Below, in pieces: positions 17,369-41,233 of a DNA stretch of 63,572 nt; positions within the stretch are counted from its first letter, which is position 1; each line of letters starts with the position of its first letter. A program made the translations under genes and the position numbers. Source of the DNA: Candidatus Dormiibacterota bacterium (GTDB lineage Bacteria; Chloroflexota; Dormibacteria; Aeolococcales; Aeolococcaceae); assembly GCA_003135895.1 (NCBI GenBank), contig PNBE01000158.1:1-63572 (forward strand), in the 5' to 3' direction. Under the pieces are notes generated by a model that saw only the letters and a program-made list of their open reading frames with translations, searched no databases and was not told the origin of the DNA.

Positions 17369-18274
17369 GTGGCACAGCCGCCGATCCGCGAAGTCGGTTT
17401 CATCGGACTCGGCGTGATGGGATTGCCGATGGCGATCAATCTAGTGCGCGCCGGTGTCCATGTGACGGCGTACTCGCGTTCGCCCTCCCCCGTTGAACTC
17501 TTCGTTCGCGCGGGCGGAACGGGCGCGTCCTCCATCGAACAAGCTGCCCGCGACAAGGACTGTGTCGTGATGATGCTGCCGGACACGCCCGACGTCGAGA
17601 GGGTCCTGCTCACACCTGGAGGCGTTGTCGAGAGTGCACGCCGGGGGACGGTGGTGCTGGACATGAGCACCATCTCGCCGCTGGCGACCCGCCGGTTCGC
17701 CGCGACACTGCGCACGCATGGTCTCGACCTGGTGGACGCGCCCGTGTCCGGAGGCCAGACCGGCGCGGAAAACGCAACCCTGTCGATCATGGTCGGTGGG
17801 TCGGACACCGCGTTTGCGCGCGTGCATCCCATCCTCGAGATGCTCGGGAAGACCATCGTCCACATCGGCGATTCCGGCGCCGGCCAGGTTGCCAAAGCCT
17901 GCAACCAGCTGATCGTCAGCGTGACCATCGAAGCGGTGGCCGAAGCGCTGACATTGGCGCAGGCTGCAGGCGTCTCACCACGCCGTACGCGCGAGGCGCT
18001 CCTGGGCGGATTTGCGGCCAGCCGGGTCCTGGAGGTGCACGGACAGCGGATGCTGGACGCCAACTTCCAGCCGGGGTTTCGCGCCAGGTTGCATCTGAAG
18101 GATGCCGAGATTGTCCTGGAGACATCACGCCACTTGACGCTCGATCTTCCAGCCGCCGGAGTGGCGAGAGCCGCCCTTCAGCGCCTGGTTGACGCCGGCG
18201 GAGGTGACCAGGACCACTCCGCCCTGGTCACCACCATCGAAAACGCGAGGTTCCCGTTCACCGATCCCGCGTAA
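17369..18274 (+). CDS. glxR: tartronate semialdehyde reductase-like beta-hydroxyacid dehydrogenase
   Basis: A 301-residue 3-hydroxyisobutyrate/tartronate semialdehyde reductase-family enzyme. It has cofactor motif GFIGLGVMGLPMAINL, substrate loop DAPVSGGQTGAE and catalytic Lys in GQVAKACNQL. It reduces tartronate semialdehyde to D-glycerate with NAD(P)H if it works with Hyi, which the adjacency suggests. The start is GTG at 17369 with AAAGGGGG upstream. 3-hydroxyisobutyrate or a related beta-hydroxyacid is the main alternative substrate. The VOC gene downstream is convergent. Confidence 0.87.
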   Translation: MAQPPIREVGFIGLGVMGLPMAINLVRAGVHVTAYSRSPSPVELFVRAGGTGASSIEQAARDKDCVVMMLPDTPDVERVLLTPGGVVESARRGTVVLDMSTISPLATRRFAATLRTHGLDLVDAPVSGGQTGAENATLSIMVGGSDTAFARVHPILEMLGKTIVHIGDSGAGQVAKACNQLIVSVTIEAVAEALTLAQAAGVSPRRTREALLGGFAASRVLEVHGQRMLDANFQPGFRARLHLKDAEIVLETSRHLTLDLPAAGVARAALQRLVDAGGGDQDHSALVTTIENARFPFTDPA

Positions 18275-18302: not shown

Positions 18303-18716
18303 TCACGACCTCTTCTGATTCACCTCGACGACGTTGAGCGCGGCATCGTAGAAGTAGATCTGGTAGAAGCCTTCGAGGGCCCACGTTCCTGAATCCTCGA
18401 ACGGCACGTTCTCGCGACGCAACGCGTCCTTCACCGCTTCGATATCGTCGACGTTGATCGCGAGGTGGCCGGTGAGAGTCGGATGCAGAAACAGGTGATT
18501 GTCGTAGCTGAACCGCTGCGTGGGTCGGCTCATGTGCACCTGGCAGCGGCCGTCGTCGAAGAACGCCCGCGTGGCCGAACTCCTGTCAGTGACGATCCCA
18601 CCGCCCGGCTGGTATGGAAAGGGCTCTTCCTCCATCCCCAGGACGCGCGTATAGAACGCTGCGTTCTCGCGGATGTTCTGCACCGGAATATTGACGTGAT
18701 GAAGCCGCCAGCCCAT
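18303..18716 (-). CDS. VOC-superfamily (glyoxalase-type) metalloprotein
   Basis: A 137-residue vicinal-oxygen-chelate domain protein with the paired beta-alpha-beta-beta-beta modules: RLHHVNIPVQNIRENAAFY at the start, GHLAINVDDIEAVKDAL in the middle, and VVEVNQ at the end. Candidate metal ligands are the His in HHVNIP, the His in GHLAI and the Glu in VVEVN. The ATG at 18716 has a strong AAGGAGG seven bases upstream; the longer frame has no such site. Family members are glyoxalases, extradiol dioxygenases, epimerases and resistance proteins. It lies 46 bases after the SDR gene, in the same operon. Confidence 0.85.
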   Translation of the reverse strand: MGWRLHHVNIPVQNIRENAAFYTRVLGMEEEPFPYQPGGGIVTDRSSATRAFFDDGRCQVHMSRPTQRFSYDNHLFLHPTLTGHLAINVDDIEAVKDALRRENVPFEDSGTWALEGFYQIYFYDAALNVVEVNQKRS

Positions 18717-18762
18717 GGTTGCACCTCCTTGTTGCGTGAATATCTGCAGCGATGCTGCGCTC

Positions 18763-19590
18763 TCAGTAATTGATTCCCCGGTACGCGCCGCCATCGACCG
18801 TGATCGCCTGTCCCGTGATCGCCCCGTTCACCGGCGACGCGAGCAGGACGACAAGCGGGGCAATATCAGTCGGCTCGACGACCCGTCCGATCGGAAGATA
18901 CGTGGCCAGATCCGCCTCAGCCTCGGCTTCGGTGGTCCCCATCTCAGCAGCTCGACGCTTGATTCGCGCCGGGTGCCGGTCCGTTCGCGTGATGTGTGGG
19001 TGAATCACGTTGACGAGCACGCCATCCTTGATGACCTGTTCGCCGAGCATCTTTGCGAAGTTCGTGATCATGGCATTCCCCAGGCCCGACACCATGGGGT
19101 TGCCCTCGGTCGACGGGCGTTCCCGCCCTCGCATCACCATGCGCGCGCTCGTGCCCGCGATGAAGATGATCCTGCCGGAGTGCGCCGACTGCATATAGGG
19201 AAGGACCGCGCGCGAGAGGCGTATCGCCGCCAGGGCTTTCCCGCCGACTCGAGACATGATCTGATCGTCGCTGGCGTCCGCCAGCTTTGACGGCGCGCTG
19301 TCGACGTTGGCGCCGGCGTTGTTCACCAGGATGTCGATTCCGCCGAATGCGGCGGTCACCTTATCGATGACGCCCTGACATGCGGCGGCATCGGTGAGGT
19401 CGGCTGGGAGGATCAGACATTCCGCGCCGAGCGCGCGGATTTCCCCGGCCGTGGTCTGCAGCGCCGCCTCGCCTCGGGAGCAGATGGCGACCCTGGCACC
19501 CTCCGCCGCAAACGCAAGTGCAATCTGCCGCCCGATACCGCGGCTCCCGCCGGTCACCAGGACGGACTTCCCCGAGAGTTGCAAATCCAT
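18763..19590 (-). CDS. SDR-fold oxidoreductase with altered catalytic motif
   Basis: A 275-residue short-chain dehydrogenase fold with TGGSRGIGRQIA for cofactor binding, LPADLTD and LVNNAGAN. Where the Tyr-x-x-x-Lys pair is expected the sequence reads SGLGNAMITNF, so Tyr and Lys align with Ser and Asn; the upstream catalytic Ser region (IAGTSARM) is present. Either another Tyr/Lys pair serves or the chemistry differs. The C-terminal GAITGQAITVDGGAYRG is typical of FabG-like SDRs. It lies between the flavoprotein gene (23 bases upstream) and the VOC gene, forming a three-gene unit. Confidence 0.83.
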   Translation of the reverse strand: MDLQLSGKSVLVTGGSRGIGRQIALAFAAEGARVAICSRGEAALQTTAGEIRALGAECLILPADLTDAAACQGVIDKVTAAFGGIDILVNNAGANVDSAPSKLADASDDQIMSRVGGKALAAIRLSRAVLPYMQSAHSGRIIFIAGTSARMVMRGRERPSTEGNPMVSGLGNAMITNFAKMLGEQVIKDGVLVNVIHPHITRTDRHPARIKRRAAEMGTTEAEAEADLATYLPIGRVVEPTDIAPLVVLLASPVNGAITGQAITVDGGAYRGINY

Positions 19591-19613
19591 TCGTATTCCT
19601 CAGCCTTTTCGAT

Positions 19614-21152
19614 TCATGACCAGTTGGAGCCGGCGACCACCGGTGCGCCACCGTCGAGAGCGCCGGTCACCGCGGCCTTCCCTGCGCTGGTACCCGCTAG
19701 CCGTCCGAAGACGGCCCCCGAAGTGAGTCCGGTGCCCCCGGGATAGTTGAAGTAGAAGAGACCGCCCACCAGTTCACCGCACGCGTAGAGGCCCGAGAGA
19801 GGTTGCCCCTCGGTGTCGATCACGCGCGCGTCCTGGTCGATGTGCAGTCCGCCAAAGGTGAAGGTGATGCCGCACGTCACCTGGTACGCCGCGTACGGCG
19901 GCTCATCGATGAGGTTCGCCCAGTTGGACTTCGGAATCGGCAGATCCGCGCGGCGCCCGTCTTTCACGTTGGGGTCGAACGGAATGTCGGCTCGGATCGA
20001 CTCGTTGTATTCCTGCACGGTCTTCACGAACTGCCTCGCGTCGACGCCGTCGAGCTTCTCCGCGAGCTGCTCGATGCTGTCGGCGACGACCTTGGTGACC
20101 TGGCGGATCCGGTACTCATCGCGGAGCAGGTGGGTGACCTTCTGGTCGAAAATCTGCCAGGCGAACTGGTGCGGCTGGCGAAGGATCACCTGGCCATAGC
20201 TGGCATAGGTGTAATTGCGGAAGTCAGCACCCTCGTCGACGAATCGACGGCCCTCGGCATTGACCATGATCCCGAACGGATAGCTGTGTTTCTGAAACCC
20301 ATCACCCACGGCGAGATCACCGAATTCCGGTGCATTGCGATCCCATCCGACCGCATGGCAGCCGGACCAGTTGCCGAACGGCATGGCTCCGGCGTCGAGC
20401 GCGATTCGGATGCCGTCACCGGTGTTGAAGCGCGTTCCGCGAACCTTTGCGAGATCCCACCCGGGACCGAGATAGCGCGTTCGCCATTCTGTGTTCGCCT
20501 GGAATCCACCCGAGGCCAGCACAACCGCGGTGGCGGGGAGATCCGTCTCTCGACCACCCTGGCGGATGCGAACACCTTCGATCTGCCCGCTGCTCGACGT
20601 GAGCAGGGAAATAGCGCGCGCCTGGTAGCGCACCTCGATGCCGGCCGCGTCGGCGGCGTTGAACAGGGCCTCGATGAGGCCCGGGCCTCCACCGCTGGCT
20701 TCAATGGTCAGGCCGCCCCAGAATCTGAAGCGATTGTTGACCTTGAAGGCCTGCCGTCCGTAGATCGGCAGAAAGCGAACGCCCTTGGTGGTCATCCATT
20801 TGAGGGTGCGAAAGCTTCTCGTCGCCAGGGTCTCGACAAGATCGGGATCGGCGCGGAACTCGGTCACCCGGGCCATGTCGGCCATGAACGCCGCCTCACC
20901 GTATTCGCCGAAGTCGGTGATGCTGCGGTCCTCAGCGGACAGGTCGGGCATCAGCTCCATCAGCTGCTCCACGCCGTCGTAGGCAACCCGCATCGCACCG
21001 GCGGTGAACGCGGTGTTGCCCCCCCGCTCGCCGCGTCCGGCGCGCTCGAGGACGATGACCCTCGCTCCCTGCTCGACTGCCGCCAGCGCCGCACACAGCC
21101 CCGCATTGCCTGCGCCAACAACGATCACATCAGCGTTCGGGGTACTCGCCAC
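19614..21152 (-). CDS. FAD-dependent tricarballylate/fumarate dehydrogenase-like flavoprotein
   Basis: A 512-residue flavoprotein of the succinate dehydrogenase/fumarate reductase/3-ketosteroid dehydrogenase superfamily. It has N-terminal FAD motif IVVGAGNAGLCAALAA, LERAGRGERGGNT, VVLASGGFQAN, and the C-terminal FAD/substrate segment FNYPGGTGLTSGAVFGRLAG. It most resembles tricarballylate dehydrogenase TcuA in length and C-terminal motif. It would introduce or reduce a C=C bond next to carboxylates. GTG at 21152 is preceded by AGGAGAAAG. It is divergent from the GntR gene, with tandem GTATACCGGA boxes between them. Confidence 0.87.
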   Translation of the reverse strand: MASTPNADVIVVGAGNAGLCAALAAVEQGARVIVLERAGRGERGGNTAFTAGAMRVAYDGVEQLMELMPDLSAEDRSITDFGEYGEAAFMADMARVTEFRADPDLVETLATRSFRTLKWMTTKGVRFLPIYGRQAFKVNNRFRFWGGLTIEASGGGPGLIEALFNAADAAGIEVRYQARAISLLTSSSGQIEGVRIRQGGRETDLPATAVVLASGGFQANTEWRTRYLGPGWDLAKVRGTRFNTGDGIRIALDAGAMPFGNWSGCHAVGWDRNAPEFGDLAVGDGFQKHSYPFGIMVNAEGRRFVDEGADFRNYTYASYGQVILRQPHQFAWQIFDQKVTHLLRDEYRIRQVTKVVADSIEQLAEKLDGVDARQFVKTVQEYNESIRADIPFDPNVKDGRRADLPIPKSNWANLIDEPPYAAYQVTCGITFTFGGLHIDQDARVIDTEGQPLSGLYACGELVGGLFYFNYPGGTGLTSGAVFGRLAGTSAGKAAVTGALDGGAPVVAGSNWS

Positions 21153-21252
21153 CTTTCTCCTCGAGGGACTGGTTCCGCACGCTCGGCGGGATCGGACGTC
21201 AAACGGGCGATCAGCTCAGGGAATGGCCGGGGAGCACGCTTGCAATGCGTAC

Positions 21253-21272
21253 GTATACCGGAGTATACCGGA
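21253..21272. promoter_or_regulatory. tandem GTATACCGGA boxes, probable GntR operator
   Basis: GTATACCGGA occurs twice head to tail (21253-21262 and 21263-21272), placing the two GTATAC palindromes exactly one helical turn apart. The site lies between the divergent flavoprotein operon and the gntR gene. GTATAC-centred operators are common for GntR/FCD regulators. Confidence 0.65.
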
Positions 21273-21435: not shown

Positions 21436-22071
21436 TTGTCTGTCTATGAGGCACTGCGCACCCACATTCTCGATGGCGACCTCCCGCCGGGCACGCCGCT
21501 CGTCGAAGCCGCGCTGGCCAAGCGATTGGGGGTGAGCCGTACACCCATCCGCGAGGCGCTGCGACGGCTGGAGCAGGACACCCTGGTGGAGCGGGTCCAC
21601 AGGGGGCTCCAGGTCCGGGCTCGAAGCCCCGCCGAGATTTTGGAGATCTACGAGGTGCGCATCGTGCTCGAGGGAACGGCCGCGCGCGCGGCCAGTCAGC
21701 GCTTCACTGAAATCGATCGCATCCGCCTTCGCCAGCTGGCGGCATCGCTCGCGCAGCGGCAATCGGCGCCGTCCCAGGAACTGGCCGCCTTGAATCTCCA
21801 GTTCCACAAGGCGATCTGGCAGGCAAGCCACAATCAGACGCTCATCGATGTCCTGGAGCGCCTCCATGTGCATCTGTATCGCTACCCGGATACCACGTAT
21901 GCGCTGCCGGGACGAGCACAGAGCTCCCTGGAGGAACACGAGGAGCTGATGGACGCGATCTTCAGCGGGGCCGGCGATCGCGCTGCCACGATTGCCTCGC
22001 AGCACATGACGATCGCGCGCGACCTCCGTCTTGACATGTGGGCGAGCGACCCGGCGAGCCTTCCGCTCTGA
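21436..22071 (+). CDS. GntR family regulator, FadR/FCD subfamily
   Basis: A 211-residue GntR regulator. The winged helix (YEALRTHILDGDLPPGTPLV, then LAKRLGVSRTPIREALRRLE) occupies residues 4-60 and an all-helical FCD ligand domain follows, with likely metal/ligand residues in RIVLEGTAAR, LNLQFHKAIW and LEEHEELMDAI. FCD regulators sense small carboxylates or hydroxyacids. TTG at 21436 has GAGG eight or nine bases upstream. It sits among acid-catabolism genes, divergent from a flavoprotein operon and convergent with the large operon ending at 22097, and is the best candidate local regulator. Confidence 0.9.
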   Translation: MSVYEALRTHILDGDLPPGTPLVEAALAKRLGVSRTPIREALRRLEQDTLVERVHRGLQVRARSPAEILEIYEVRIVLEGTAARAASQRFTEIDRIRLRQLAASLAQRQSAPSQELAALNLQFHKAIWQASHNQTLIDVLERLHVHLYRYPDTTYALPGRAQSSLEEHEELMDAIFSGAGDRAATIASQHMTIARDLRLDMWASDPASLPL

Positions 22072-22096: not shown

Positions 22097-22852
22097 TCAG
22101 GTGTCGGCGACGACCCGGGGCAGATCCGCATGCCAGAGACCGCTGGGCCGTGCGCGTCCATACGCCTGGATCTCACCGCCGACGAATTGATCGCCGCTGA
22201 CCGACATCACGCTGACAACGACCTCCGCCGCTTCGTCGGGAGTCATCCAGAGGTGGCGCTCAGCGGCTGGAATCATCCGCTCGCTGAGCGCGGTGACCAC
22301 CGGCCCCGGGCTCACCGCGCACATCCGGATGCCGCTGTCGCGGAATTCCTCCATGAGCGCCTTGGTCACCCCGAGAAGTCCCCACTTCGATGCGATGTAC
22401 GCGCTCCGCAGGGGGCCCGCATGGGTCGACCAGATCGACGTGATGTTGATGATCGACCCGGACCCGTGTTGCAGCATGCCGGGTAACACCGCGCGCATGC
22501 AGTTCACGGGGCCATTCAGGTTAACGTCGATGATTCGGCGGAAGTCGTCGGCGGGGAGATCGAGAAAGCGCTCGAACTGGCCGATTCCCGCCGAGTTGAT
22601 GAGCCCGTCCACCCGGCCGGCTCGCTCCTCGGTCTCCCTGAGCGCGTCTCCAACCTGGGCGGTGTCGGTGATGTCGCAGCGGATATGCGACGCGGTTGCC
22701 TCGTCAGATGAGGAACGGTCCCAGGTGACCACGTGCCGCCCGCGGGAGCGCAGCAGGTCGGCGACGCGAGAACCGATCTCGCCCGCGCCGCCGGTGACGA
22801 TCACGCATCCGGTGGTGGCTGATGTCGGGCTTGCCTCAGGCTCGGCCATCAC
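22097..22852 (-). CDS. short-chain dehydrogenase/reductase
   Basis: A 251-residue classical SDR with TGGAGEIGSRVA for NAD(P) binding, LINSAGIG, catalytic Ser in INITSIWSTH, and intact Tyr-x-x-x-Lys in SAYIASKWG. It is the last gene of the eight-gene minus-strand operon; its ATG overlaps the PrpF-like stop (ATGA). It probably oxidises or reduces a hydroxy/keto intermediate of the pathway. Unlike the SDR at 18763 its catalytic residues are all conserved. Confidence 0.9.
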   Translation of the reverse strand: MMAEPEASPTSATTGCVIVTGGAGEIGSRVADLLRSRGRHVVTWDRSSSDEATASHIRCDITDTAQVGDALRETEERAGRVDGLINSAGIGQFERFLDLPADDFRRIIDVNLNGPVNCMRAVLPGMLQHGSGSIINITSIWSTHAGPLRSAYIASKWGLLGVTKALMEEFRDSGIRMCAVSPGPVVTALSERMIPAAERHLWMTPDEAAEVVVSVMSVSGDQFVGGEIQAYGRARPSGLWHADLPRVVADT

Positions 22853-24039
22853 CTCGACCCTCCGATGGTGGCTCCTCGAGCAGCACGCACTGGGCCCGGT
22901 TGCTTGAGAAACGCTGAGCCCTTGAGCAGCCGGCGCGCGGTGCGGACGATGGACGCAGAGATCACAGTCGGTGTCTCAGCGCCGTCGTCGAGTTTGATCG
23001 ACGCGCAGATCGTTCCGCTGGGATGCGCGATGCAGATCGTGTCATCGCGCGGTGGCGATGACACCGCGTGCGGAATCGTCCCATCGATGCGACACGCCGC
23101 CGCGGTGCAGATGGCGACCGTCAGGGCATAGGAATGAATGACCCGCCCCATCGCCACGGTCCGCCCCGTCAACTGGATGGCGTCTGATCCGGGCGGGGGT
23201 GGCGACACGATCGCCATCCGCGGCACCACCGGTGAGCGCAGCGCGGCCTCATCGGCGCGCTCCGCCACCTTGAGCAGCACCGCGCAACCGCCCCTGATCT
23301 CCTCCAGCAACGACAGCAGCGCACCATCGGCGTTGAGATCGTCAGCCGGCTCGCTGCCGCTCAAACCGAGATCCGACGCTCGGACGAAGACCGTGGGATG
23401 GCTGACATCGACAATCGAGATGACGAACGCGCCGCGCGTGGTCTCGATCTCGTCTTGCAGATGCCCGGTCGGCAGGAGACGGCCGAACACGCTCCCTGCC
23501 GGGTTGAGGAACTCGAGAACGATGGGTGCTCCGGTCCCTGGTACTCCATCCACCTTGTACTCGCCCTCATACCTCGCGAGACCACCGTGCACGGGGACGT
23601 GGGCGAGGATGCGCGCATGTGAGTTGTGGTTCAGCATTCGCACCACGGTGATGGGCTCCGTGACTGCCACCAATCCCTCATCCACCGCGTAGGCACCGAC
23701 TGCAGCCGAGAGGTTGCCGCAGTTGCCTGAGTAGTCGACGATCGCCACATCCGTGCCAACCTGGACTGCCGTGTATTCGACGTCGGTCTCGGCGGCCTCG
23801 CCGGCTTGAATGATCATGACCTTGCTCGTGTTCACGTGGGTGCCGCCCAGGCCGTCGAGTTGCATCGGGTCCGGACTTCCCATGAGGTCGAGCAGCGCCA
23901 AGTCCCGTGCAGGTCCCGGGGCCGGGAGGTCGTCGTTGCGGACGAACACCCCCTTGCTCGTCCCGCCTCGCATCATCACCACCGGAACCACCGACTGATC
24001 GTCAGCGTGACGAGTCCGGTCAGGCGTGTGATCGTGCAT
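22849..24039 (-). CDS. PrpF-family isomerase/tautomerase
   Basis: A 396-residue PrpF-family protein with the diaminopimelate epimerase-like double-lobed fold. Signature segments are MMRGGTSKGVFV near residue 22, DYSGNCGNLSAAVG with the likely catalytic Cys near residue 112, and ICIAHPSGTI near the C-terminus. Members move C=C bonds in polycarboxylates: 2-methylaconitate isomerase, aconitate isomerase and 4-oxalomesaconate tautomerase. The ATG at 24039 immediately follows the SRPBCC stop and has GGAGG four bases upstream. No acnD or prpB/C genes are present, so it is not the methylcitrate cycle enzyme in its usual setting. Confidence 0.88.
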   Translation of the reverse strand: MHDHTPDRTRHADDQSVVPVVMMRGGTSKGVFVRNDDLPAPGPARDLALLDLMGSPDPMQLDGLGGTHVNTSKVMIIQAGEAAETDVEYTAVQVGTDVAIVDYSGNCGNLSAAVGAYAVDEGLVAVTEPITVVRMLNHNSHARILAHVPVHGGLARYEGEYKVDGVPGTGAPIVLEFLNPAGSVFGRLLPTGHLQDEIETTRGAFVISIVDVSHPTVFVRASDLGLSGSEPADDLNADGALLSLLEEIRGGCAVLLKVAERADEAALRSPVVPRMAIVSPPPPGSDAIQLTGRTVAMGRVIHSYALTVAICTAAACRIDGTIPHAVSSPPRDDTICIAHPSGTICASIKLDDGAETPTVISASIVRTARRLLKGSAFLKQPGPVRAARGATIGGSR

Positions 24040-24648
24040 CTATCCTCCGGATGCCTCGCCATGCGCCGCTAGACGCTCCACCTGGTTTGCGATCTTGTTG
24101 GCGAGATCCTCTGCGGCAGGCGCCAACATCGGCTCGATCATCGCATCGACCACCGGGCCGATGACACCGCCGCTCTTCATCCGGAGGGTGAATGCCAGCT
24201 GTGAGGCCGCCGGCCCGGTCTGGCTGACGATCCGCTCGGTCTGCTGCGGATTGCTTCGCCGGTAGAAGAAGAGGATCACCCTGCTTCGCAGGGATTGCCA
24301 CCAGCCCTTCCGCGGGGGAACCGGCGCCGGCCCGGCCGCGGCATCGCCCTCGGCCGCCACGGGACCCATCACGAACAGCCCCTCCCCCTCTGTCTGCTCA
24401 TCGATACCCGACATCGTGAACGCCACTCGCGCGGGGCCGGCCCATTCGGTGATGTGGACGCGGAATTGCACCACCCTCGACAGCACCCCGACATCTCCCT
24501 TGAGCGTCCATATCGAGTCGGAGTCGTCGATGACCTCATGCGACTGATAGCCAGTCACATATGGCGCCCAGTTGTCCATGACCTTGACAAAGTCCCAGAT
24601 GGCCGTCTGGGGCGCATGGACGACGGTGGTGTACGCGACCTCCGGCAC
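24040..24648 (-). CDS. SRPBCC-fold (polyketide cyclase-like) protein
   Basis: A protein of about 202 residues with a START/SRPBCC-type lipid- or aromatic-binding fold: VAYTTVVHAPQTAIWDFVKV, then WTLKGDVGVLSRVVQFRVHI, and a C-terminal helix ending EDLANKIANQVERLAA. A basic insert (WWQSLRSRVILFFYRRS) interrupts the middle. The GTG at 24648 lies two bases after the flavoprotein stop. It could bind or process the hydrophobic substrate of the operon; an enzymatic role is not evident. Confidence 0.75.
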   Translation of the reverse strand: MPEVAYTTVVHAPQTAIWDFVKVMDNWAPYVTGYQSHEVIDDSDSIWTLKGDVGVLSRVVQFRVHITEWAGPARVAFTMSGIDEQTEGEGLFVMGPVAAEGDAAAGPAPVPPRKGWWQSLRSRVILFFYRRSNPQQTERIVSQTGPAASQLAFTLRMKSGGVIGPVVDAMIEPMLAPAAEDLANKIANQVERLAAHGEASGG

Positions 24649-24650
24649 CG

Positions 24651-26282
24651 TCAGCCCACCGGTGCCGCATCGAGTGCGTTGCGCACCGCGATGTACCCGA
24701 AGGTCATCCCCTTGGCGTTGGAGATGCCGCCGTTGTACCAGAGACCTTCGGCAAGGTTCGCCGCCACGTTCCCCGCGGCGTACAGGCCGGGAATCGGATC
24801 GCCCCGCACGTGCATCACCTGGGCTTCGTGGTTGATGACGAGTCCCGAATTGGTACCGGCAGTGCCAAGCGCCATCCTGACCGCGTAGAGGCGGCCCTGC
24901 AGCGGCCGAACGCATGGGTTGGGCTGGACGCTCGGATCCCCGCCGTTACGGCCGTGGTTGGTGCTGCCGCGCCCGAAGGCCGGATCCTCTCCGCGGCTTG
25001 CCGGTCCATTGAAGGTTGCGATGGTCTCGGTCAAGCCGTCCTCGTCGACGTCGATCTTGCGAGCCAGCTCGGCCGGCGTGTCCGCGCTGATCATCCAGCC
25101 CGGAACGTCACCCGGCATCACCGAGGCCAGGGGATACCTGTCCTTCCATTCCTGGTCGCAGATGAAGTAACTCTCGAGGTTGGGGAACTCCTGGGACAGC
25201 GGATCGAAGTGCACCATCTCGTGGCAGAGATCGCGGTAAAAGGTCTCGTCGCCGAAGCGCTTGCCACGGCGGTTGACCACCATGCTGCCGGGGAAACAGA
25301 GCTCCCGGATGAACAGACGGTACAGGGGCTGATCGGCTGCGGCCTCTCCAGGGATGTTGTAGGCCGGAACCAGCAGCTGCCCGTCGAACATCGCCATCGC
25401 GGCGCCCTGCTCGAGCGCCATCACGAGCCCGCTGCCGTCGACTGTCGGTGCACCGAGCCGCACCGTCATCGGGTGCGGGTCCCAGCGACGTTTCAAGACC
25501 TCACTTCCGTCGTAGCCACCGGTGGCGAGGATCACGCCATAGCGTGCTTCGAAGAGCTCATCCCCGGCCGGCGTCGACGCGCGTACGCCGACGACACGTC
25601 CTGCGTCGACGACGAGGCTGCGGACATCAGCGTGCGGGCGCACCGCAACGTTCTGACGAATCAGCGACGCGAGCATCCAACCCGCGACGGCCGATCCGAA
25701 TGCACGATAGTCGTCGCGGATTCGCTGGGCGAGCATGGTCCAGTCCCAGGTCGCAACCGTGCCAAATCCGCCCCACCCCTGGATCTCCTTCCATGACGCC
25801 GGAACCATGGCGTAATAAGGTGAGTTCGTCAGCTGGCTGCGCCATTCGTCGGGGAGGTGCTCCTTGGCGGGGAAGATCGGCGAGGACAGATGCCGTCCCG
25901 CGACCTTGCCGCCCTCGAGCTCGGAGTAGTAATCCGGAAAGTTGTCCGGCATTTCGAAGGGCACGCCGCAGCGGTCCTCCAGAAATGCAATCGCCGCCGA
26001 GGAGTTCGTGACAAACGACCGCAGCAGCGCTTCATCGTGACGGCCCCCGCTCAGCGAACGGATGTGGGCGCAGGCTTCCTCCACGGAGTCGTCGATCCCC
26101 GCCGCCTGCATGTGCCGGTTGTTCGGGATCCACGCCAGACCGGTGGAGTATGCGAATGTCCCCCCGATCGTCGGTCCCTTCTCGAGCACAACCGCACTCT
26201 TGCCGAGACTGGTCGCAACCAGGGCGGCGGTGAGCCCACCTCCCCCACTGCCCACGATGACGATGTCGTACTTACCCGACAA
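24651..26282 (-). CDS. FAD-dependent dehydrogenase (3-ketosteroid dehydrogenase/fumarate reductase type)
   Basis: A 543-residue flavoprotein starting MSGKYDIVIVGSGGGGLTAA with the FAD-binding glycine motif, followed by VLEKGPTIGGTFAYSTG, VILATGGYDGSE, and a C-terminal GLYAAGNVAANLAEGLWYNG segment. It belongs to the same superfamily as the 19614 flavoprotein but is a different subgroup, closer to 3-ketosteroid delta-1-dehydrogenases. It probably dehydrogenates an acyl or keto substrate. It is fifth in the large operon, 14 bases after the ThDP gene. Confidence 0.87.
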   Translation of the reverse strand: MSGKYDIVIVGSGGGGLTAALVATSLGKSAVVLEKGPTIGGTFAYSTGLAWIPNNRHMQAAGIDDSVEEACAHIRSLSGGRHDEALLRSFVTNSSAAIAFLEDRCGVPFEMPDNFPDYYSELEGGKVAGRHLSSPIFPAKEHLPDEWRSQLTNSPYYAMVPASWKEIQGWGGFGTVATWDWTMLAQRIRDDYRAFGSAVAGWMLASLIRQNVAVRPHADVRSLVVDAGRVVGVRASTPAGDELFEARYGVILATGGYDGSEVLKRRWDPHPMTVRLGAPTVDGSGLVMALEQGAAMAMFDGQLLVPAYNIPGEAAADQPLYRLFIRELCFPGSMVVNRRGKRFGDETFYRDLCHEMVHFDPLSQEFPNLESYFICDQEWKDRYPLASVMPGDVPGWMISADTPAELARKIDVDEDGLTETIATFNGPASRGEDPAFGRGSTNHGRNGGDPSVQPNPCVRPLQGRLYAVRMALGTAGTNSGLVINHEAQVMHVRGDPIPGLYAAGNVAANLAEGLWYNGGISNAKGMTFGYIAVRNALDAAPVG

Positions 26283-26296
26283 GGTAGGCCGTGCCT

Positions 26297-28051
26297 TTAG
26301 CCCAGCGCCGGCATGACGAACGTGCCGCCGCCGGTCATCGGGACAAACGTGGCTGGATCGACATCGATATCGACAAGGAACGGGCGCGGCGTCGCGATGC
26401 CGCGACGAAGCGCAGGACCGATCTCCTCGACACTGGTGACGCGCTGTGCCTCCATACCCATCGCGCTCGCGATCGCCGCAAAATCGAGGCGATACGAGTC
26501 ACCACCTTGAGTCTGAAACACGGAGAACAAGTTCCGGCCGGGGCCGTAGCGCGTGTCCTGCGGTCGCTTCACGGCGCCGTACATCGCGTCGTTGACCACG
26601 ACGTAGGTGATCGGGAGGTTGTACTCGACCACGGTCGGCAGGACGTGCAAGCTCATCGACATACTGCCATCTCCGACCCAGCTCACCACCGGGCGACCCG
26701 GAGCCGCGAGCTGCGCTCCGACGGCGCCGCATGGACCGAATCCCATCGCCGCGCCACCCATGGTGCTCAACACCGAACGGGGGCGAATCGCGGCAAATTG
26801 CTGGGCGATCCATTTGTGGGCATTCCCGACGTCTGAGATGACGAGCCCGTTCTCGGGGAGCGCGGCACGCAACTCCCCGACGACGCGACCGGTCTGGATT
26901 GGGAACGCGTCGCTCGACAGCAATTGCTGACTCTGGGCACGCCAACGCGCCTTCGACTCGCTCAACTGGCCGATCCAGTCCTCGCGCGACCGAGGAGCAG
27001 ATGCGGAACGGTGCTTGAGACCGGTGACGAGATCCTCGAGGACCGCACGGATATCGCCGACAGCGCCGATCTCCGCTGGGTAGTACTTGGATATCTCACC
27101 GGGATCGATGTCGATCTGGATGAGTCTCGTCGGCGGTATCGCGAACGGTTTGCCTTCCTGCCACGCGCTCGTGTCCGTCTCCGCAAACCGCGTGCCCAAC
27201 GCCAGCAGGACATCGCACTCCCGCAGGGCTGTGTTGGCGGGCTCGGTCCCGATCCATCCCGAGATGCCCATGGCGAGCGGATGGTCCTCGGCGATCGCCC
27301 CCTTGCCCATCACGGTCGTGGCGACCGGTGCGCGGAGCGCCTCCGCGAGAGCGGTCAACTGCTCGCTCGCCTCGGCGAGCACCGCGCCGCCGCCAGCGAG
27401 GATCGCCGGCCGCTTGGCGTGTTCGAGGAGGTCGAGAATGGCCTCCGTGGCCGGTGCGGATGCGCGGCTGCCGGCGGAGATCAACCCGAGGGTCTCGGCC
27501 GAGGGCAGTGCCACCTCGACACGATCAGCCCACGCATCCTGGGTCACGTCCAGGTGCACGGGGCCGGGGCGTCCGGAGGTGGCGAGACGGTAGGCCTTCA
27601 GGACCGTTTCGAGCAGACGGTCGGCGCGATGCACCTGCCAGCTTCGCTTGACACTGCCGCGGAACATGTCCGGCGTGCCGGCATCCCGATCGCGTGCGAG
27701 TTCCTGGTAGGCGCCACGACCCTGGATGCGGCTCCAGCTCTCCCCCGTGATCACGATCATCGCCGACGAGTCGAGGTAAGCGTTGGTGACACCCGTCAGA
27801 AGATTCGCCGACCCCACGCTGATGTGGGCAAAGGCAACCATCGGACGGTGCGAGACGCGATAGAACGCGTCAGAGGCAAATGCGGCGGTCTCTTCATTGC
27901 GCGGGAGGACCGCCGTCAGATGGTCCTGTCGATCGTAGACGGCATCGACGAAGTCCAGGACCGTGTGCCCGGGAATGCCCGAAACGTGGGTCACACCGAG
28001 GCGAACGAGCATTTCCGCAACGATCTCCGCGCCGCGCATGGTTGTCGTCAT
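26297..28051 (-). CDS. ThDP-dependent enzyme, acetolactate synthase-like
   Basis: A 584-residue thiamine diphosphate enzyme with three domains. The cofactor-activating Glu is kept in LPRNEETAAFASDAFYR, and the ThDP/Mg motif runs from GDGSMSMSLHVLPTVVEYNL to VVNDAMYG. The middle domain has LAGGGAVL. Because the Glu is present it is not a canonical glyoxylate carboligase, in which this residue is Val. It should decarboxylate a 2-keto acid and may ligate the product. The ATG at 28051 overlaps the lyase stop (ATGA), so keto-acid made by the lyase could pass directly to it. Confidence 0.88.
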   Translation of the reverse strand: MTTTMRGAEIVAEMLVRLGVTHVSGIPGHTVLDFVDAVYDRQDHLTAVLPRNEETAAFASDAFYRVSHRPMVAFAHISVGSANLLTGVTNAYLDSSAMIVITGESWSRIQGRGAYQELARDRDAGTPDMFRGSVKRSWQVHRADRLLETVLKAYRLATSGRPGPVHLDVTQDAWADRVEVALPSAETLGLISAGSRASAPATEAILDLLEHAKRPAILAGGGAVLAEASEQLTALAEALRAPVATTVMGKGAIAEDHPLAMGISGWIGTEPANTALRECDVLLALGTRFAETDTSAWQEGKPFAIPPTRLIQIDIDPGEISKYYPAEIGAVGDIRAVLEDLVTGLKHRSASAPRSREDWIGQLSESKARWRAQSQQLLSSDAFPIQTGRVVGELRAALPENGLVISDVGNAHKWIAQQFAAIRPRSVLSTMGGAAMGFGPCGAVGAQLAAPGRPVVSWVGDGSMSMSLHVLPTVVEYNLPITYVVVNDAMYGAVKRPQDTRYGPGRNLFSVFQTQGGDSYRLDFAAIASAMGMEAQRVTSVEEIGPALRRGIATPRPFLVDIDVDPATFVPMTGGGTFVMPALG

Positions 28052-29016
28052 TTCTGACCTTTCTCCTGAGGCACGGCTTCTGCGCCTGTCGATGCCGCAA
28101 TGGTGTTCATGACTTCGCTGGTCCTGGCCGCGAGTGTGTCCTCGAGCGCTTCCCACTCGGGAAGGCCGACCGCGGCCTGGCGATCTGCCCACGAAAGCAT
28201 CGGTCGCCCGGCTTCACTCGGATGACCCGTCAGGCGGAGACGCTCCAGCGCATCTCGCGCCGCGGCGGATGCGACCCGCATCACCGCATTGGCGTGGAGG
28301 GCGATCCGGTAGCCCATGCGCTCGAGCTCTTCATGTGACACAGCAGGCGTGAGCCCGCCCTCGACGATGTTGATGAGCACCGGAGCCGGGATCTCGCCTG
28401 GGATGGTGGCGATGGCGTCGAGTGTCGTCGGCGCCTCGATGAACACCACGTCAGCCCCGGCCTCCGCGAACGCCCGTCCGCGACCGATCGCCTCGGCGAG
28501 CCCGTCGGTGGCCACCGCATCGGTGCGTCCCACGATGACCATCGCTGGATCACGCCTGGCTTCGCGTGCGGCGACGAGCCGCTCGATCATCTCGCCGAGC
28601 GTGACCACCTCCTTGCGCGACAGATGTCCGCACCGCTTGGGATTGACCTGGTCTTCAATCTGCACGCCGGCTGCGCCGGCCGCTTCGAACTCCTGCACGG
28701 TGCGAAAGACATTGATCGCGCCGCCATAGCCCGTATCGATATCCGCGAGCACGGGGATGCGGACGGCTCTTGAAATACGCCGAGTTGCCTCGAGTATCTC
28801 CCCCATGGTCGCAAGGCCCAGGTCGGGAAGCCCGAGCATCCAGTTGGCGATGCCGGCACCACTCGAGAACACCATCTCGAACCCGGCCTGCTCCGCAAGC
28901 CTCGCGACAAACGGGTCGCTCACGCCCGGACAGATGACCAGCTGCGACCCCTCGATCAGCCGGCGGAGTTGGAGGCGAGTCGAGCCTTCGGCCTGGGGAG
29001 CGTCGGACTCGGTCAC
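28048..29016 (-). CDS. isocitrate lyase/PEP mutase-family lyase, canonical loop
   Basis: A 322-residue lyase of the methylisocitrate/2,3-dimethylmalate lyase branch. The metal site is VLADIDTGYGG and the active-site loop is IEDQVNPKRCGH, with the full Lys-Arg-Cys-Gly-His motif, unlike the two variant paralogues at 12528 and 36662. It catalyses retro-aldol cleavage of a branched or hydroxylated dicarboxylate to a 2-keto acid (often pyruvate) and a smaller acid. GTG at 29016 lies four bases after the CMD-like stop, and its own stop overlaps the ThDP start. Confidence 0.88.
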   Translation of the reverse strand: MTESDAPQAEGSTRLQLRRLIEGSQLVICPGVSDPFVARLAEQAGFEMVFSSGAGIANWMLGLPDLGLATMGEILEATRRISRAVRIPVLADIDTGYGGAINVFRTVQEFEAAGAAGVQIEDQVNPKRCGHLSRKEVVTLGEMIERLVAAREARRDPAMVIVGRTDAVATDGLAEAIGRGRAFAEAGADVVFIEAPTTLDAIATIPGEIPAPVLINIVEGGLTPAVSHEELERMGYRIALHANAVMRVASAAARDALERLRLTGHPSEAGRPMLSWADRQAAVGLPEWEALEDTLAARTSEVMNTIAASTGAEAVPQEKGQK

Positions 29017-29020
29017 GCCG

Positions 29021-29428
29021 TCAGCCGTCAGTTGATGCCGATTCGCTCTCGGCGCACGCCTGCCACAGGGCCTGTCCCACGCGCAGATACCCGATCACGC
29101 CGAGGAAGAGGAATGCGAGGCTGAGCGCTTCGCGCACTTCGGTCACGGTCAACCCGCTATTGAGGCCGTGCTTGAGGTGGGTCAGCGCTCCCTCCTTGTT
29201 GGCGACGGCCATGTTCATGGTGATCATGACCAGCTCCTTGTGTGCCCGCGAGAGCCCGCCCTCGCGTTCCTCATAGATCCACGAGCGCAGGCGGCGATAA
29301 CTCTCCTCCGCTGTGGGGTTCATGTCGTGGAGGTCCGAGGCGACCTCGGACACACGCCCCAGCATGCGAATCCAATCCGCCTGCCATTCGTCGCCCGAAG
29401 GCGCCGCGTCACTCGCCTCCTGGGTCAA
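29021..29428 (-). CDS. carboxymuconolactone decarboxylase-family protein
   Basis: A small helical protein of the CMD/AhpD-like family: LRSWIYEEREGGLSRAHKEL, then ITMNMAVANKEGALTHLKHG and TVTEVREALSLAFLFLG. The His in LTHLKHG is conserved but there is no Cys-x-x-Cys, so it is not an AhpD-type peroxidase. The start is uncertain. TTG at 29428 has AGGGA at a sensible distance (135 residues); TTG at 29461, one base after the solute-binding-protein stop, would give 146. CMD-like proteins often accompany decarboxylation or lactone chemistry. Confidence 0.75.
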   Translation of the reverse strand: MTQEASDAAPSGDEWQADWIRMLGRVSEVASDLHDMNPTAEESYRRLRSWIYEEREGGLSRAHKELVMITMNMAVANKEGALTHLKHGLNSGLTVTEVREALSLAFLFLGVIGYLRVGQALWQACAESESASTDG

Positions 29429-29462
29429 CCGCGGGTCCCTCGCTCGCGCGTGATCGTGCAAG

Positions 29463-31130
29463 TCACGATCCGCGCAGCTCCCAGAACGGTCCGGCCTGCC
29501 CGTTGCCGTCCTGGAGATTCCACTCGGCGACGTGCGGACCGAACGCATAGAAGGCGTCCAGCGTGAAGAGTCCGTATGCCGGCTGCGTCGCGTAGAGATA
29601 GTCGTCATATTCGCGCGCAACCGCGGCACGCTTGGTCGGGTCATAGGTTGTGCTCAGCGCGACCGCGTAGTCGTTGAGCTTGGGATCGTCGGCGGTCACG
29701 TTGCCCGACGTCTTCAGGAAGAACTGGTTCGCGAGATAGCCGGGGTCGTAGAGCTGCAGTCCCTCGAGGCCGAAGAGGAACGCGCCGTCAAACACGTGGC
29801 TGTCCTGAAGCTCTCCCTGGAGCGCGGGATCCATCGGCTGATACGTCGTGTTGATACCGATGTCATTCCAGTTGCTCGCGATCGCCTGCCCGAGGTCCTG
29901 GATGTTGCCGATGGTGTCGTCGGCGTTCTTCGAGACCAGGGTGAAGTTGAACGAGGAATGCCCTGCGTCGCTGAGGAGTTGCTTTGCCTTTGCGGTGTCG
30001 AACGCGTACGGCTTGTTCGCCGGATTGTGTCCGAGCGTGCCGCCGACGGCGAAGTCGTCGTCCAGCGTCGCGGCGCCACTGAAGATCGCCTTGATCATCC
30101 CCTGGCGATCCATGCCGTAGAGCATCGCCTGACGGACCCGAAGATCGTGCACTGGCGAGGCCTGCTTTGCGGGTGTGGGGCTGTCCGGGTTCAGCGCCGC
30201 GAAGATCATCCATACCAAGGTCACGTCGTGGTTGGTGACGACCCGGATGCCCGATGCTCCCTGCAACTGCTGACGTCCTGACGGGGAGATGCTCGCGATG
30301 GCGTCGAGCGATCCGCTCTGCAGGCCTGCGAGTCGCGAGGACTCCTCTGGCAGGAGCAGGAGCGTGAGCGTCTTGAAATTCGGCGTGCGAGTCGGGTCCC
30401 AGAAGCCGTCGAACCGATCAAAGATCATGTTGACGTTGAGTTGCTGCGACCCGAACTTGTAGGGACCCGCGGCCATGGGATGCAGACGGAACTGCGCATC
30501 GCCGACCTGGTGGTAGTACCCGGTCGGGATCGGCACGGGAAGATCGTCGAGCATGGTCACGTATGGGGAGGTCGTCGTGATCGCGATGTGGGTGTCGTCG
30601 ATGATGTTGACGTTCTTGATCGCCTGGACGACCGGCTCATTGAGGACGAAGTCGCCGGGAAAGGCCTTGACGCGGTTGATGGATGTCTGCACGTCCTGGG
30701 CGGTGAAGGTCGAACCGTCATGCATCTTCACACCGGATCGAAGCGTGAACGTCCACGTGAGGCCGTCGGCACTGGTCTCGTACGATGCGGCAAGGGCGTT
30801 GGAATGTTGGCCTTTCAGGTCGCGGCGCACCAGCGGCTCACCGAGCGACGTGAAGATCGGTGTGCGCATGGCCCCGTGCGAGTAGGCGAACATCGGGTCC
30901 GGAGTCTGAGTCCCGAGGTCCGGCAGCCCGAGGTTGATGTTTGGATATCGGGACACCTTGGGGACGGGCCCGGCTGAGCCGCTCGGTGACGTCGTCTGAC
31001 ATCCCACCAGGGCGGCTGCGAGGCCAAGGCCCCCGGCCACCATGAAATGGCGCCGGCTCAGCTCGGCAGAGAGCAGCTCGGAGAGCATGCGACGAAGGTC
31101 CGAATCTGGAATCCTGCCTTGTTCGGGCAT
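29463..31130 (-). CDS. family 5 extracellular solute-binding lipoprotein
   Basis: A 555-residue oligopeptide/nickel-type (family 5) solute-binding protein. A Tat-like SRRHFM motif (residues 25-30) precedes a hydrophobic core and lipobox LVGC with Cys44, so it is probably a folded, Tat-exported lipoprotein. Family segments include YETSADGLTWTFTLRSGVKM and VRQAMLYGMDRQGMIKAIF. The ATG at 31130 has GGAGG about ten bases upstream. It is the first gene of the eight-gene operon, yet no permease or ATPase is in it; the matching parts are at 40.2-43.1 kb and 13.5 kb. The ligand is unknown. Confidence 0.9.
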   Translation of the reverse strand: MPEQGRIPDSDLRRMLSELLSAELSRRHFMVAGGLGLAAALVGCQTTSPSGSAGPVPKVSRYPNINLGLPDLGTQTPDPMFAYSHGAMRTPIFTSLGEPLVRRDLKGQHSNALAASYETSADGLTWTFTLRSGVKMHDGSTFTAQDVQTSINRVKAFPGDFVLNEPVVQAIKNVNIIDDTHIAITTTSPYVTMLDDLPVPIPTGYYHQVGDAQFRLHPMAAGPYKFGSQQLNVNMIFDRFDGFWDPTRTPNFKTLTLLLLPEESSRLAGLQSGSLDAIASISPSGRQQLQGASGIRVVTNHDVTLVWMIFAALNPDSPTPAKQASPVHDLRVRQAMLYGMDRQGMIKAIFSGAATLDDDFAVGGTLGHNPANKPYAFDTAKAKQLLSDAGHSSFNFTLVSKNADDTIGNIQDLGQAIASNWNDIGINTTYQPMDPALQGELQDSHVFDGAFLFGLEGLQLYDPGYLANQFFLKTSGNVTADDPKLNDYAVALSTTYDPTKRAAVAREYDDYLYATQPAYGLFTLDAFYAFGPHVAEWNLQDGNGQAGPFWELRGS

Positions 31131-31150
31131 TGTAAATGCGCCTCCATGCG

Positions 31151-31158
31151 TGGTACCA
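31151..31158. promoter_or_regulatory. TGGTACCA palindrome in the operon leader
   Basis: A perfect 8-base palindrome between the predicted transcription start and the solute-binding-protein start codon. Similar TGGTACC sites precede the genes starting at 37624 (37654-37660) and 38970 (39013-39020). It resembles GntR/FadR-type half-sites, but an 8-mer is weak evidence alone. Confidence 0.35.
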
Positions 31159-31174
31159 AGAGCGGTGTCGCGAT

Positions 31175-31204
31175 ACTCTAGGCTATAGTGACGCGATGTT
31201 ACAA
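31175..31204 (-). promoter_or_regulatory. predicted promoter of the eight-gene operon
   Basis: On the minus strand TTGTAA (31199-31204) and TAGAGT (31175-31180) are 18 bases apart, exactly as at 12294-12323. Transcription would start near 31168, about 38 bases before the ATG. Confidence 0.65.
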
Positions 31205-31219
31205 GTAGCAAGTGTAGCG
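31196..31219 (-). repeat. 24-base shared element, copy 2
   Basis: Identical over 24 bases to 12315-12338 and placed the same way over the predicted -35 box. Outside the element the two promoter regions differ apart from the -10-like hexamer, so the identity is unlikely to be a simple recent duplication of the whole region. Confidence 0.75.
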
Positions 31220-31338
31220 GCCTGCAATCGGTCGACGATCGCGGCGAGCGCCGCGAGGGCTACCATTGCGACCAAAGTGACAGGGCCTTGGGCTGAGAGC
31301 CCGCTCGGATCGACCTTCCCGGCACTGTAGAGCGTTCC

Positions 31339-32730
31339 GTGCCCCCAGCAGTGTCTGATAGTTCCGCCGTCACGGTCCACGACAAGTGGAGCGGCGAGAT
31401 ACTCGGAGAGCTCGAGCGCGCGACCGAGCCGCTCATTGAGAAGACCATGGCGGGAGCGGTGGACGCCCTTCGCCAACCCTGGAGCGCACTCGATCGAGCC
31501 GCAGCTCTGAGAGGTGCGGTCGCCATGCTCCGTGAGCGGCGTGCGGAGCTGACCACGGTCATGCGCCGTGAGACCGGCTTCACAACAACGGACGTCCACG
31601 ACGAGTTCGAACGCGCCATGGTCACCCTGCAGCTCTGCGCCGAGGAATCGACCCGGTTGGGCGGCGAGGTCATACCGCTCGGAGCAAGCGCCGGATTCGA
31701 GCAACGTGTGGCGTTCACCCTGCGCGTCCCGATCGGGGTCGTCCTCGCGATCACGCCGTTCAATGCTCCGCTGAACACCGTCTGTCACAAGATCGGGCCG
31801 GCCCTGGCTGCCGGCAACTCGGTGGTGCTGAAGCCGGCGCTGCTGACGCCGCTCACCGCCCAACTGCTGGTCGACACCCTCCATGCCGCGGGTGTGCCGG
31901 GAGGCTATCTGCAGATCCTTCACGGGAGTGGCAGCGAGCTCGGCCTCCGGCTGCTTCGCGATCCGAGGATCGCCTTCGCGACCTTTACCGGGTCAACCGA
32001 GGTCGGTCTGATCGTCAAACGTGAGACGGGGATCCGTCCGGTGCAGCTCGAGCTCGGGAGCACCTCAACCACCATCGTCTGCGAGGACGGTGATCTCGAC
32101 CGTGTCGTCGTCGATGTGCGCCGATCGGGGTTCCGCAAGGCCGGCCAGGTCTGCACGTCGGTGCAGAACCTGCTCGTGCAACGACGCGTCGCCGATCAGC
32201 TCCGTGAACTGCTGACCGTCGGAGTGACGAGCCTCCGCTCGGGCGACCCAGGCGAGGCGTCCACCGAGGTGGGTCCGGTGATCACCCAACAGGCGGCCGA
32301 GTACGCGAACGAGCTGATAGCGGATGCGGTCAGTGCCGGCGCTCAGATCGCCGTGGGTGCCGCACGGGAGCGCAACCTGCTGGCACCGACGCTCATGACC
32401 GGGGTCAATCCGAACATGCGGATCGTGCGCGAGGAAGTTTTCGCGCCCGTGGTGAACCTGATCTCCTTCGATGCTCTCCCCGAGGCGTTCGCGATCGCCA
32501 ATGCTTCTCGCTACGGCCTCCAGGCGGGCTTCTATACGGCCTCGATCGCGAACGCGCTCCACGCTGCCCGCTCACTCGAGGTGGGCGGCGTCATTATTAA
32601 TGGGACCTCCAGCACGCGTGCGGACGGGATGCCCTACGGCGGCGTCAAGGACAGCGGGTTCGGCCGCGAGGGGCCCGCCTACGCGATCAGCGAGATGACT
32701 GTCCCGCGTCTGGTCGTGCTCACGCCGTAG
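31339..32730 (+). CDS. aldehyde dehydrogenase
   Basis: A 463-residue NAD(P)-dependent aldehyde dehydrogenase. The catalytic Glu is in QLELGSTST, the nucleophilic Cys in KAGQVCTSVQ, the Asn region in TPFNAPLN, and the C-terminal GGVKDSGFGREGP segment is present. It oxidises an aldehyde, probably a small hydroxy- or semialdehyde, to the acid. The start is a GTG at 31339; no strong ribosome site is visible and the frame upstream is interrupted. It is divergent from the big operon and shares its control region. Confidence 0.88.
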   Translation: MPPAVSDSSAVTVHDKWSGEILGELERATEPLIEKTMAGAVDALRQPWSALDRAAALRGAVAMLRERRAELTTVMRRETGFTTTDVHDEFERAMVTLQLCAEESTRLGGEVIPLGASAGFEQRVAFTLRVPIGVVLAITPFNAPLNTVCHKIGPALAAGNSVVLKPALLTPLTAQLLVDTLHAAGVPGGYLQILHGSGSELGLRLLRDPRIAFATFTGSTEVGLIVKRETGIRPVQLELGSTSTTIVCEDGDLDRVVVDVRRSGFRKAGQVCTSVQNLLVQRRVADQLRELLTVGVTSLRSGDPGEASTEVGPVITQQAAEYANELIADAVSAGAQIAVGAARERNLLAPTLMTGVNPNMRIVREEVFAPVVNLISFDALPEAFAIANASRYGLQAGFYTASIANALHAARSLEVGGVIINGTSSTRADGMPYGGVKDSGFGREGPAYAISEMTVPRLVVLTP

Positions 32731-41223: not shown

Positions 41224-41233
41224 TGCTGACCAA

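Follow-up and report, generated by a model that had tools for sequence, protein, structure and literature searches.

A probable catabolic operon uniting a PrpF-family isomerase, an alkylmalate-lyase-like enzyme and a ketone-desaturase-like flavoprotein in a Candidatus Dormiibacterota bacterium

Which compound would be degraded by a set of genes that places a PrpF-family isomerase and a carbon-carbon lyase beside a thiamine diphosphate (ThDP) enzyme and a flavoprotein? This question is raised by positions 22097-31130 of a 63,572-nucleotide stretch (the window) from a Candidatus Dormiibacterota bacterium, which forms contig PNBE01000158.1 (C12) of a 3.6 Mb assembly in 211 contigs that is 79% complete. 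A preliminary description of this DNA had read eight genes there as one operon encoding a complete acid-degradation route. Our analysis indicates that the eight-gene operon is very probably real and catabolic in character. As far as the searched collections show, the gene combination is new, and every part of it belongs to a known enzyme family.

Structure and conservation of the eight-gene block

Between 31130 and 22097 of the minus strand, we identified eight co-directional open reading frames (ORFs) arranged head to tail in the order SBP_bac_5 solute-binding lipoprotein (SBP), CMD-domain protein, lyase of the phosphoenolpyruvate (PEP) mutase/isocitrate lyase (ICL) type, ThDP enzyme, FAD_binding_2 dehydrogenase, SRPBCC protein, PrpF isomerase and SDR (Table 1). 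All eight genes of the preliminary description were recovered at their positions with matching Pfam families. The junction between the SBP and CMD genes measures 4 or 34 bases, depending on the TTG start chosen for CMD; those that follow measure 4 bases (CMD/lyase), -4 (lyase/ThDP), 14 (ThDP/FAD), 2 (FAD/SRPBCC), 0 (SRPBCC/PrpF) and -4 (PrpF/SDR). The gaps described as mostly under 35 bases thus held at 0-34, and the ATGA overlap claimed for such junctions was found between lyase and ThDP genes; the PrpF/SDR overlap reads GTGA. Because the CMD, lyase, FAD, SRPBCC and SDR genes begin with TTG or GTG, their exact starts are inferred.

The sister species of the same genus (G026) carries all eight genes in unchanged order, with the flanking genes on both sides likewise in place. 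The operon proteins are 73-94% identical between the two genomes. Codon comparison gave dN of 0.04-0.17 and dS of 0.8-1.5 per gene, CMD and SRPBCC included, with no stops; the resulting dN/dS of about 0.05-0.17 indicates purifying selection. Searches for a terminator or a sigma-70 match at the operon promoter and end found none, so that no promoter or terminator is recognisable either for or against a single transcript. An arrangement of two or more merely adjacent transcription units would agree with this and is opposed by the 0-34 base gaps and by conservation of the whole block; we regard it as very improbable. Based on spacing and conservation, the eight genes would be expected to be co-transcribed, in accordance with the single operon described earlier.

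Binding protein and LYASE3 paralog were found in only 2 of the 32 genomes of the family, the operon genome and G026, and among 110 genomes of the class we found no further close PrpF match besides those in the operon genome and G026. Because this restricted presence is combined with a conserved block, the operon appears to belong to an accessory catabolic island that is kept as a unit.

Isomerase, lyase and the hydration step

The PrpF protein is the sole PrpF in the genome. Its NTSK and GNCGN motifs align with K73 and C107 of Shewanella oneidensis PrpF, and the catalytic Lys and Cys are thus retained; both residues are required in vivo by the S. oneidensis enzyme (PMC5690661). The protein scored under the cut-offs of the oxalomesaconate-tautomerase model NF033377 (GalD/LigU; 321.9 against 440 bits) and of the prpF model TIGR02334 (247.9 against 440.55). 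The closest solved structure is a Eubacterium barkeri protein named 3-methylitaconate isomerase in the PDB (283.8 bits), and the best match beyond the genus is 47% identical. In a tree built with a quick method, in which the deep forks are weak, the operon PrpF and its G026 counterpart form a pair by themselves, whose branch measures 1.99 changes per site; E. barkeri Mii, LigU and S. oneidensis PrpF fall elsewhere. By these comparisons, the operon PrpF appears to fit no characterised subgroup.

The lyase carries the EDQ motif and the KRCGH loop (K[KR]CGH) of the C-C lyase branch of the PEP mutase/ICL superfamily. Where three reference methylisocitrate lyases read N-x-TEFG-x-TP, it reads NIVEGGLTP, and this EGG is also found in the E. 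barkeri lyase (dimethylmalate lyase) and in petal death protein. Its score against the prpB model TIGR02317 was 272.2 bits, under the cut-off of 354.4. In the wider lyase tree, it falls in a clade of 12 (support 87/94) that is mostly from Chloroflexota and includes one alphaproteobacterial and one Bacteroidales member. Methylisocitrate lyases used as references (98/91) and the E. barkeri group (99/92) branch elsewhere. Placing the isomerase and lyase against characterised subgroups, a check put forward in the preliminary description, therefore selects none of the substrates named there, i.e., tricarballylate, aconitates, dimethylmalate and oxalomesaconate. No true isocitrate lyase was found in the genome; its three PEP mutase/ICL proteins all lie inside the window. 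The two paralogs of the operon lyase (12507-13475 (+) and 36662-37561 (-)) are 68-69% identical to each other, and both read KHCAF in place of K[KR]CGH, having lost the Gly-His; G026 holds three such copies.

ICL-type lyases cleave hydroxy-acids. Because the operon encodes no hydratase, its PrpF and lyase are left without a hydration step, and the route cannot be called complete in the sense of the preliminary description. Most other PrpF-lyase loci have such an enzyme. A search for PF00330 (LeuC/LeuD- and DmdAB-type hydratases) on the operon contig found none. A collection scan located a strong lyase match no more than 10 kb away in 19 of 80 PrpF loci, which are best matches and not a random sample; PrpF and lyase are a recurrent pair in several phyla, E. 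barkeri included. Gene maps placed LeuC/LeuD-like genes in the PrpF-lyase loci of E. barkeri, Neoroseomonas, Rhodovarius, Sciscionella, Amycolatopsis, Bordetella and Oscillospiraceae. Among loci of at least 12 kb, a LeuC-type match occurred in 15 of the 16 PrpF-lyase loci outside the lyase group of the operon, a count over mutually related loci to which no P value is attached. No LeuC-type match was found in loci L117, L118, L073 and L053. The Chloroflexota loci L117 and L118 hold the closest lyases among PrpF-linked ones outside the genus (52-58%); in both, PrpF directly adjoins the lyase and about 19 kb contain no LeuC-type hydratase. Their lyase and PrpF genes share one strand and face an asparaginase-type gene and a GntR regulator, and L117 additionally contains UbiD, amidohydrolase and CoxG/xanthine-dehydrogenase-like genes.

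Housekeeping enzymes encoded elsewhere would be needed to supply the hydration. The AcnD/PrpF system offers a precedent, as rehydration of what PrpF forms is carried out there by housekeeping aconitases (PMC5690661). The genome analysed here encodes an aconitase resembling AcnA, the LeuCD of a leucine cluster and, beside lysine/arginine-type genes, a pair of homoaconitase type. Aconitase-family members are located on contigs C202, C208 and C4, citrate synthase-family members on C9 and C175, and MmgE/PrpD pieces on C203; none of these three families was found on the operon contig of this 79% complete genome.

Flavoprotein, ThDP enzyme and the proposed route

The preliminary description had listed desaturation among the steps of an acid-degradation route. 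Our comparisons do not support a simple acid desaturase, since both model scores and the active-site alignment liken the flavoprotein to a ketone desaturase. Its closest models are those for 3-ketosteroid dehydrogenase and 4-oxocyclohexanecarboxylate dehydrogenase, with every score far under cut-off. The key residues of Rhodococcus erythropolis KstD are Tyr119, Tyr318, Tyr487 and Gly491 (PMC5348764). In the operon protein, Tyr119 and Gly491 are retained, and Tyr318 is retained or one residue off depending on the alignment. We rejected a fumarate-reductase-like assignment, in which Arg402 would have been kept, because the L-INS-i alignment gives Tyr at that position and no counterparts of His504 and Arg544. 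A structure model of the SRPBCC protein was discarded (mean pLDDT 37).

On Sphingobium plasmids, a 41% identical SRPBCC relative lies directly behind a 36% identical relative of the flavoprotein. The surrounding cluster is of steroid type, with genes for an SDR, a ferredoxin, a GMC oxidase, a Rieske ring hydroxylase, a VOC protein and an AKR. The strains carrying these plasmids come from tomato roots, and relatives of theirs degrade steroidal saponins (PMC10653915). The FAD-SRPBCC pair thus seems to travel together in a ring-ketone setting, suggesting that the substrate is a keto or ring compound. Although identity is low, no other clue to how the route begins is as good. In a relative from the same class (L134, 9228-10767), the homolog of the flavoprotein (41-51%) is split over two frames, likely by a frameshift or an assembly error.

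The ThDP enzyme has the acetolactate-synthase fold and retains the catalytic Glu and the GDGS motif in alignment with the IlvB of the genome. It scored under every curated cut-off shown (TIGR00118, 400.1 against 538.35 bits) and is 30% identical to this IlvB, which is a separate gene on C208; by score, then, it would not be an acetolactate synthase. A literature search on its PDB-named relatives BbmA and CsmA gave no substrate. Its identity is 38% both to the second ThDP enzyme of the window (43200-45080) and to enzymes from Aminobacter plasmids. The second enzyme, in the segment 43200-46238 (-), is about 50% identical to Aminobacter pUSP3 enzymes and adjoins an Ldh_2-type dehydrogenase.

Based on these families, we propose that the lipoprotein would capture the substrate, probably in partnership with Opp/Dpp-type permeases encoded 9-12 kb upstream. 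The KstD-like flavoprotein and its SRPBCC partner would desaturate a keto or ring precursor adjusted by the CMD and SDR proteins, and PrpF would shift the double bond of the resulting unsaturated polycarboxylate. Water would be added by a hydratase that the operon does not encode (LeuCD, a housekeeping aconitase or the homoaconitase-type pair), the alkylmalate-type lyase would cleave the hydroxy-acid to a 2-oxo acid and a carboxylic acid, and the ThDP enzyme would decarboxylate or ligate the oxo acid. We assign a probability of about 0.4 to this reading of the operon as a catabolic route on an accessory island, with the mechanism as proposed.

Several observations weigh against it. The order of the steps is guessed from the enzyme families, the hydratase is absent from the operon, and Trp occupies the position of the catalytic Tyr487 of KstD. 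The CMD and SRPBCC assignments lie near the detection limit (Table 1); the CMD protein scored 20.5 against a cut-off of 155.7 for TIGR02425, and no CxxC is visible in its sequence. Pairing of the lyase with PrpF is also not obligatory. Relatives in genomes G327, G307 and G250 have no adjoining PrpF, and the idea that the clade is strictly PrpF-linked was dropped after 26 added Chloroflexota lyases revealed members without it. Locus L152, from G307, has a clade lyase without PrpF, and a LeuC-type gene adjoins.

An alternative starts from the neighbouring unit, which contains the only tricarballylate-dehydrogenase-type gene (19614-21152), outside the operon. Its TcuA-like product would oxidise (substituted) tricarballylate to aconitate, PrpF would isomerise this, a housekeeping aconitase would hydrate it, and the lyase would split the isocitrate analogue into an oxo acid and a succinate. 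The TcuA-like protein passes the PRK08274 cut-off of 369 bits and is below that of TIGR02485 (255.9 against 372.55); its unit adjoins the operon in G026 too and is possibly linked to it in function. The best argument comes from the alphaproteobacterial locus L073, where one uninterrupted run of three genes encodes TcuA, PrpF and a member of the same lyase clade; TcuA also lies near PrpF in several further loci, and the genome has aconitase-type hydratases. However, TcuA is here in another transcription unit with its own GntR regulator. A perfect palindrome, GTATACTCCGGTATAC, at 21252-21269 between the GntR and TcuA-like genes is kept in G026 and is likely a GntR operator for that unit; no such site was found at the SBP promoter of the operon. 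This alternative also leaves the KstD-like FAD, SRPBCC and ThDP genes unexplained, and neither TcuB nor TcuC is among the annotated genes and neighbours, no genome-wide search having been made. We consider it unlikely, though worth weighing seriously. Equally deserving of attention, if unlikely, is a pathway for a ring ketone or a terpenoid or steroid fragment, in which the main conversions of a cyclic ketone would fall to the FAD, SRPBCC, CMD and SDR proteins, a diketone or acyloin would be cleaved by the ThDP enzyme, and PrpF and the lyase would only finish a small branched acid. The model scores of the flavoprotein, its Tyr119 and Gly491 and the Sphingobium pairing with a Rieske ring hydroxylase favour it, as does the presence of cyclohexane-1,2-dione hydrolase in the PDB match list of the ThDP enzyme; the lack of an oxygenase or CoA ligase in the operon, the identity of only about 36-41% to Sphingobium and the Tyr487 to Trp replacement count against it.

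Known cycles built on the same families fit less well. The standard methylcitrate cycle, or the dimethylmaleate branch of nicotinate fermentation (Mii, DmdAB, Dml), would account for PrpF and a PrpB/Dml-type lyase in one operon and for 3-methylitaconate isomerase as the best PDB relative. Yet both proteins miss the prpF, prpB and oxalomesaconate-tautomerase cut-offs, the lyase lies outside the methylisocitrate and E. barkeri clades and PrpF outside the E. barkeri clade, and the contig has no DmdAB-type hydratase; we judge this reading highly improbable. With no PrpC or AcnD in the operon, the exclusion of the standard methylcitrate cycle in the preliminary description stands. The Pfam name PEP_mutase and the adjacent ThDP gene also raised phosphonate biosynthesis (PepM and Ppd) or another biosynthetic operon. 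As KRCGH aligned with alkylmalate and methylisocitrate lyases and the PEP mutase model gave only 102 bits against a cut-off of 320, phosphonate biosynthesis was rejected on motif and score, and a biosynthetic operon has hardly any probability left. A more speculative extension, which we consider rather doubtful, is that the lyase clade and PrpF without a dedicated hydratase serve an undescribed branch of polycarboxylate catabolism, to which a ketone-desaturating front end would have been joined in this genus, for a plant- or soil-derived compound not assigned so far. Under that extension, either a housekeeping enzyme of aconitase type would take over from PrpF, or cleavage by the lyase would require no prior hydration.

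Neighbouring genes and known systems

The features of the operon and its flanks are listed in Table 1.

Table 1. Positions of the operon genes and flanking features in the window, with the evidence for each assignment
Feature	Positions	Strand	Evidence
SBP_bac_5 solute-binding lipoprotein, first gene	29463..31130	-	PF00496 219.7 bits; 94% identical in G026, dN/dS 0.05
CMD-domain protein, PcaC-like	29021..29458 (TTG start 29458 or 29428)	-	PF02627 25.8 bits against cut-off 23
PEP mutase/ICL-superfamily lyase, alkylmalate-lyase-like	28048..29016	-	PF13714 167 bits; KRCGH and NIVEGGLTP motifs; trees
ThDP enzyme, acetolactate-synthase-like fold	26297..28051	-	PF02776/PF00205/PF02775
FAD dehydrogenase, KstD-like	24651..26282	-	PF00890 213 bits; PRK12844 355 bits, below 789
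SRPBCC protein (Polyketide_cyc2)	24040..24648	-	PF10604 27.9 bits against 27.4
PrpF-family allylic isomerase	22849..24039	-	PF04303 356 bits; catalytic Lys and Cys positions
SDR (adh_short), last operon gene	22097..22852	-	PF00106 152 bits; G026 ortholog 73% identical
Aldehyde dehydrogenase (ALDH), upstream of SBP	31351-32730	divergent	about 210 bp from SBP
Divergent promoter region ALDH/SBP	31131..31338		alignment with G026
GntR/FCD regulator, outside operon, divergent to TcuA-like unit	21436..22071	+	PF00392, PF07729
TcuA-like FAD dehydrogenase, SDR, VOC unit	18303..21152	-	PRK08274 578.8 bits; adjoins operon in G026 too

A block of about 75 bp in the promoter region of the SBP gene is nearly identical in G026, and the rest of the gap has drifted. 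The GntR gene is convergent to the SDR gene and lies 25 bases from its end. Close to where the second ThDP gene starts, positions 45036-45053 carry a degenerate, near-palindromic copy of GTATACTCCGGTATAC. The Opp/Dpp-type permease pair and ATPase at 40240-43134 (-) have no binding-protein gene beside them and may be served by the SBP of the operon; a lone ABC ATPase lies at 13503-14303.

A hydroxypyruvate-isomerase-like gene is paired with a tartronate semialdehyde reductase gene (TIGR01505, 341.9 against 340.75 bits) at 16510-18274 (+), and this pair is absent from the corresponding place in G026. The segment 33948-40262 (-) contains two lactate-oxidase-like FMN dehydrogenases, about 69% alike, which flank a luciferase-like monooxygenase, a 219-aa protein unmatched in Pfam and a lyase paralog; G026 has these genes in the same order.

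If the proposed route is right, this uncultured Chloroflexota lineage would hold a catabolic module whose substrate current databases cannot assign, and the labels "PrpF", "PrpB" and "tricarballylate dehydrogenase" on such genes would likely be wrong at the substrate level. PrpF-lyase pairs, being two small soluble enzymes acting on simple acids, would offer a handle for finding the substrate by assay.

Among known systems, the E. barkeri cluster, whose products we take to be 3-methylitaconate isomerase (Mii), dimethylmalate lyase (Dml) and dimethylmaleate hydratase (DmdAB), likewise combines a PrpF-family isomerase with a PEP mutase/ICL lyase and shares the EGG of the lyase. It differs in having a LeuC/LeuD-type hydratase and in the clades of its isomerase and lyase, and the E. 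barkeri stretch that we examined contained no ThDP, KstD-like FAD or SRPBCC match, unlike the operon. The AcnD/PrpF cycle of S. oneidensis (PMC5690661) resembles the operon in the PrpF fold, the catalytic Lys and Cys and the ICL-type lyase; the operon lacks prpC and acnD, and its lyase is without TEFG and outside the methylisocitrate-lyase clade. The tar operon of Bacillus velezensis, which supports trans-aconitate assimilation by an isomerase and an importer only (PMC11495376), also joins a PrpF-superfamily isomerase to a transporter, but has no lyase, ThDP or FAD enzyme. Tricarballylate utilisation is represented by the TcuA-like protein next door, above its cut-off but in a separate unit, with TcuB and TcuC not among the annotated genes. 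The Sphingobium KstD-SRPBCC-Rieske cluster shares adjacent FAD and SRPBCC genes of the same two families, whereas its annotated stretch has no PrpF, lyase or ThDP gene and identity is limited to 36-41%. The lyase-PrpF pairs of L117 and L118, with their GntR and asparaginase genes, are without the other six genes of the operon. Most likely, the operon brings known enzyme families together in a new way.

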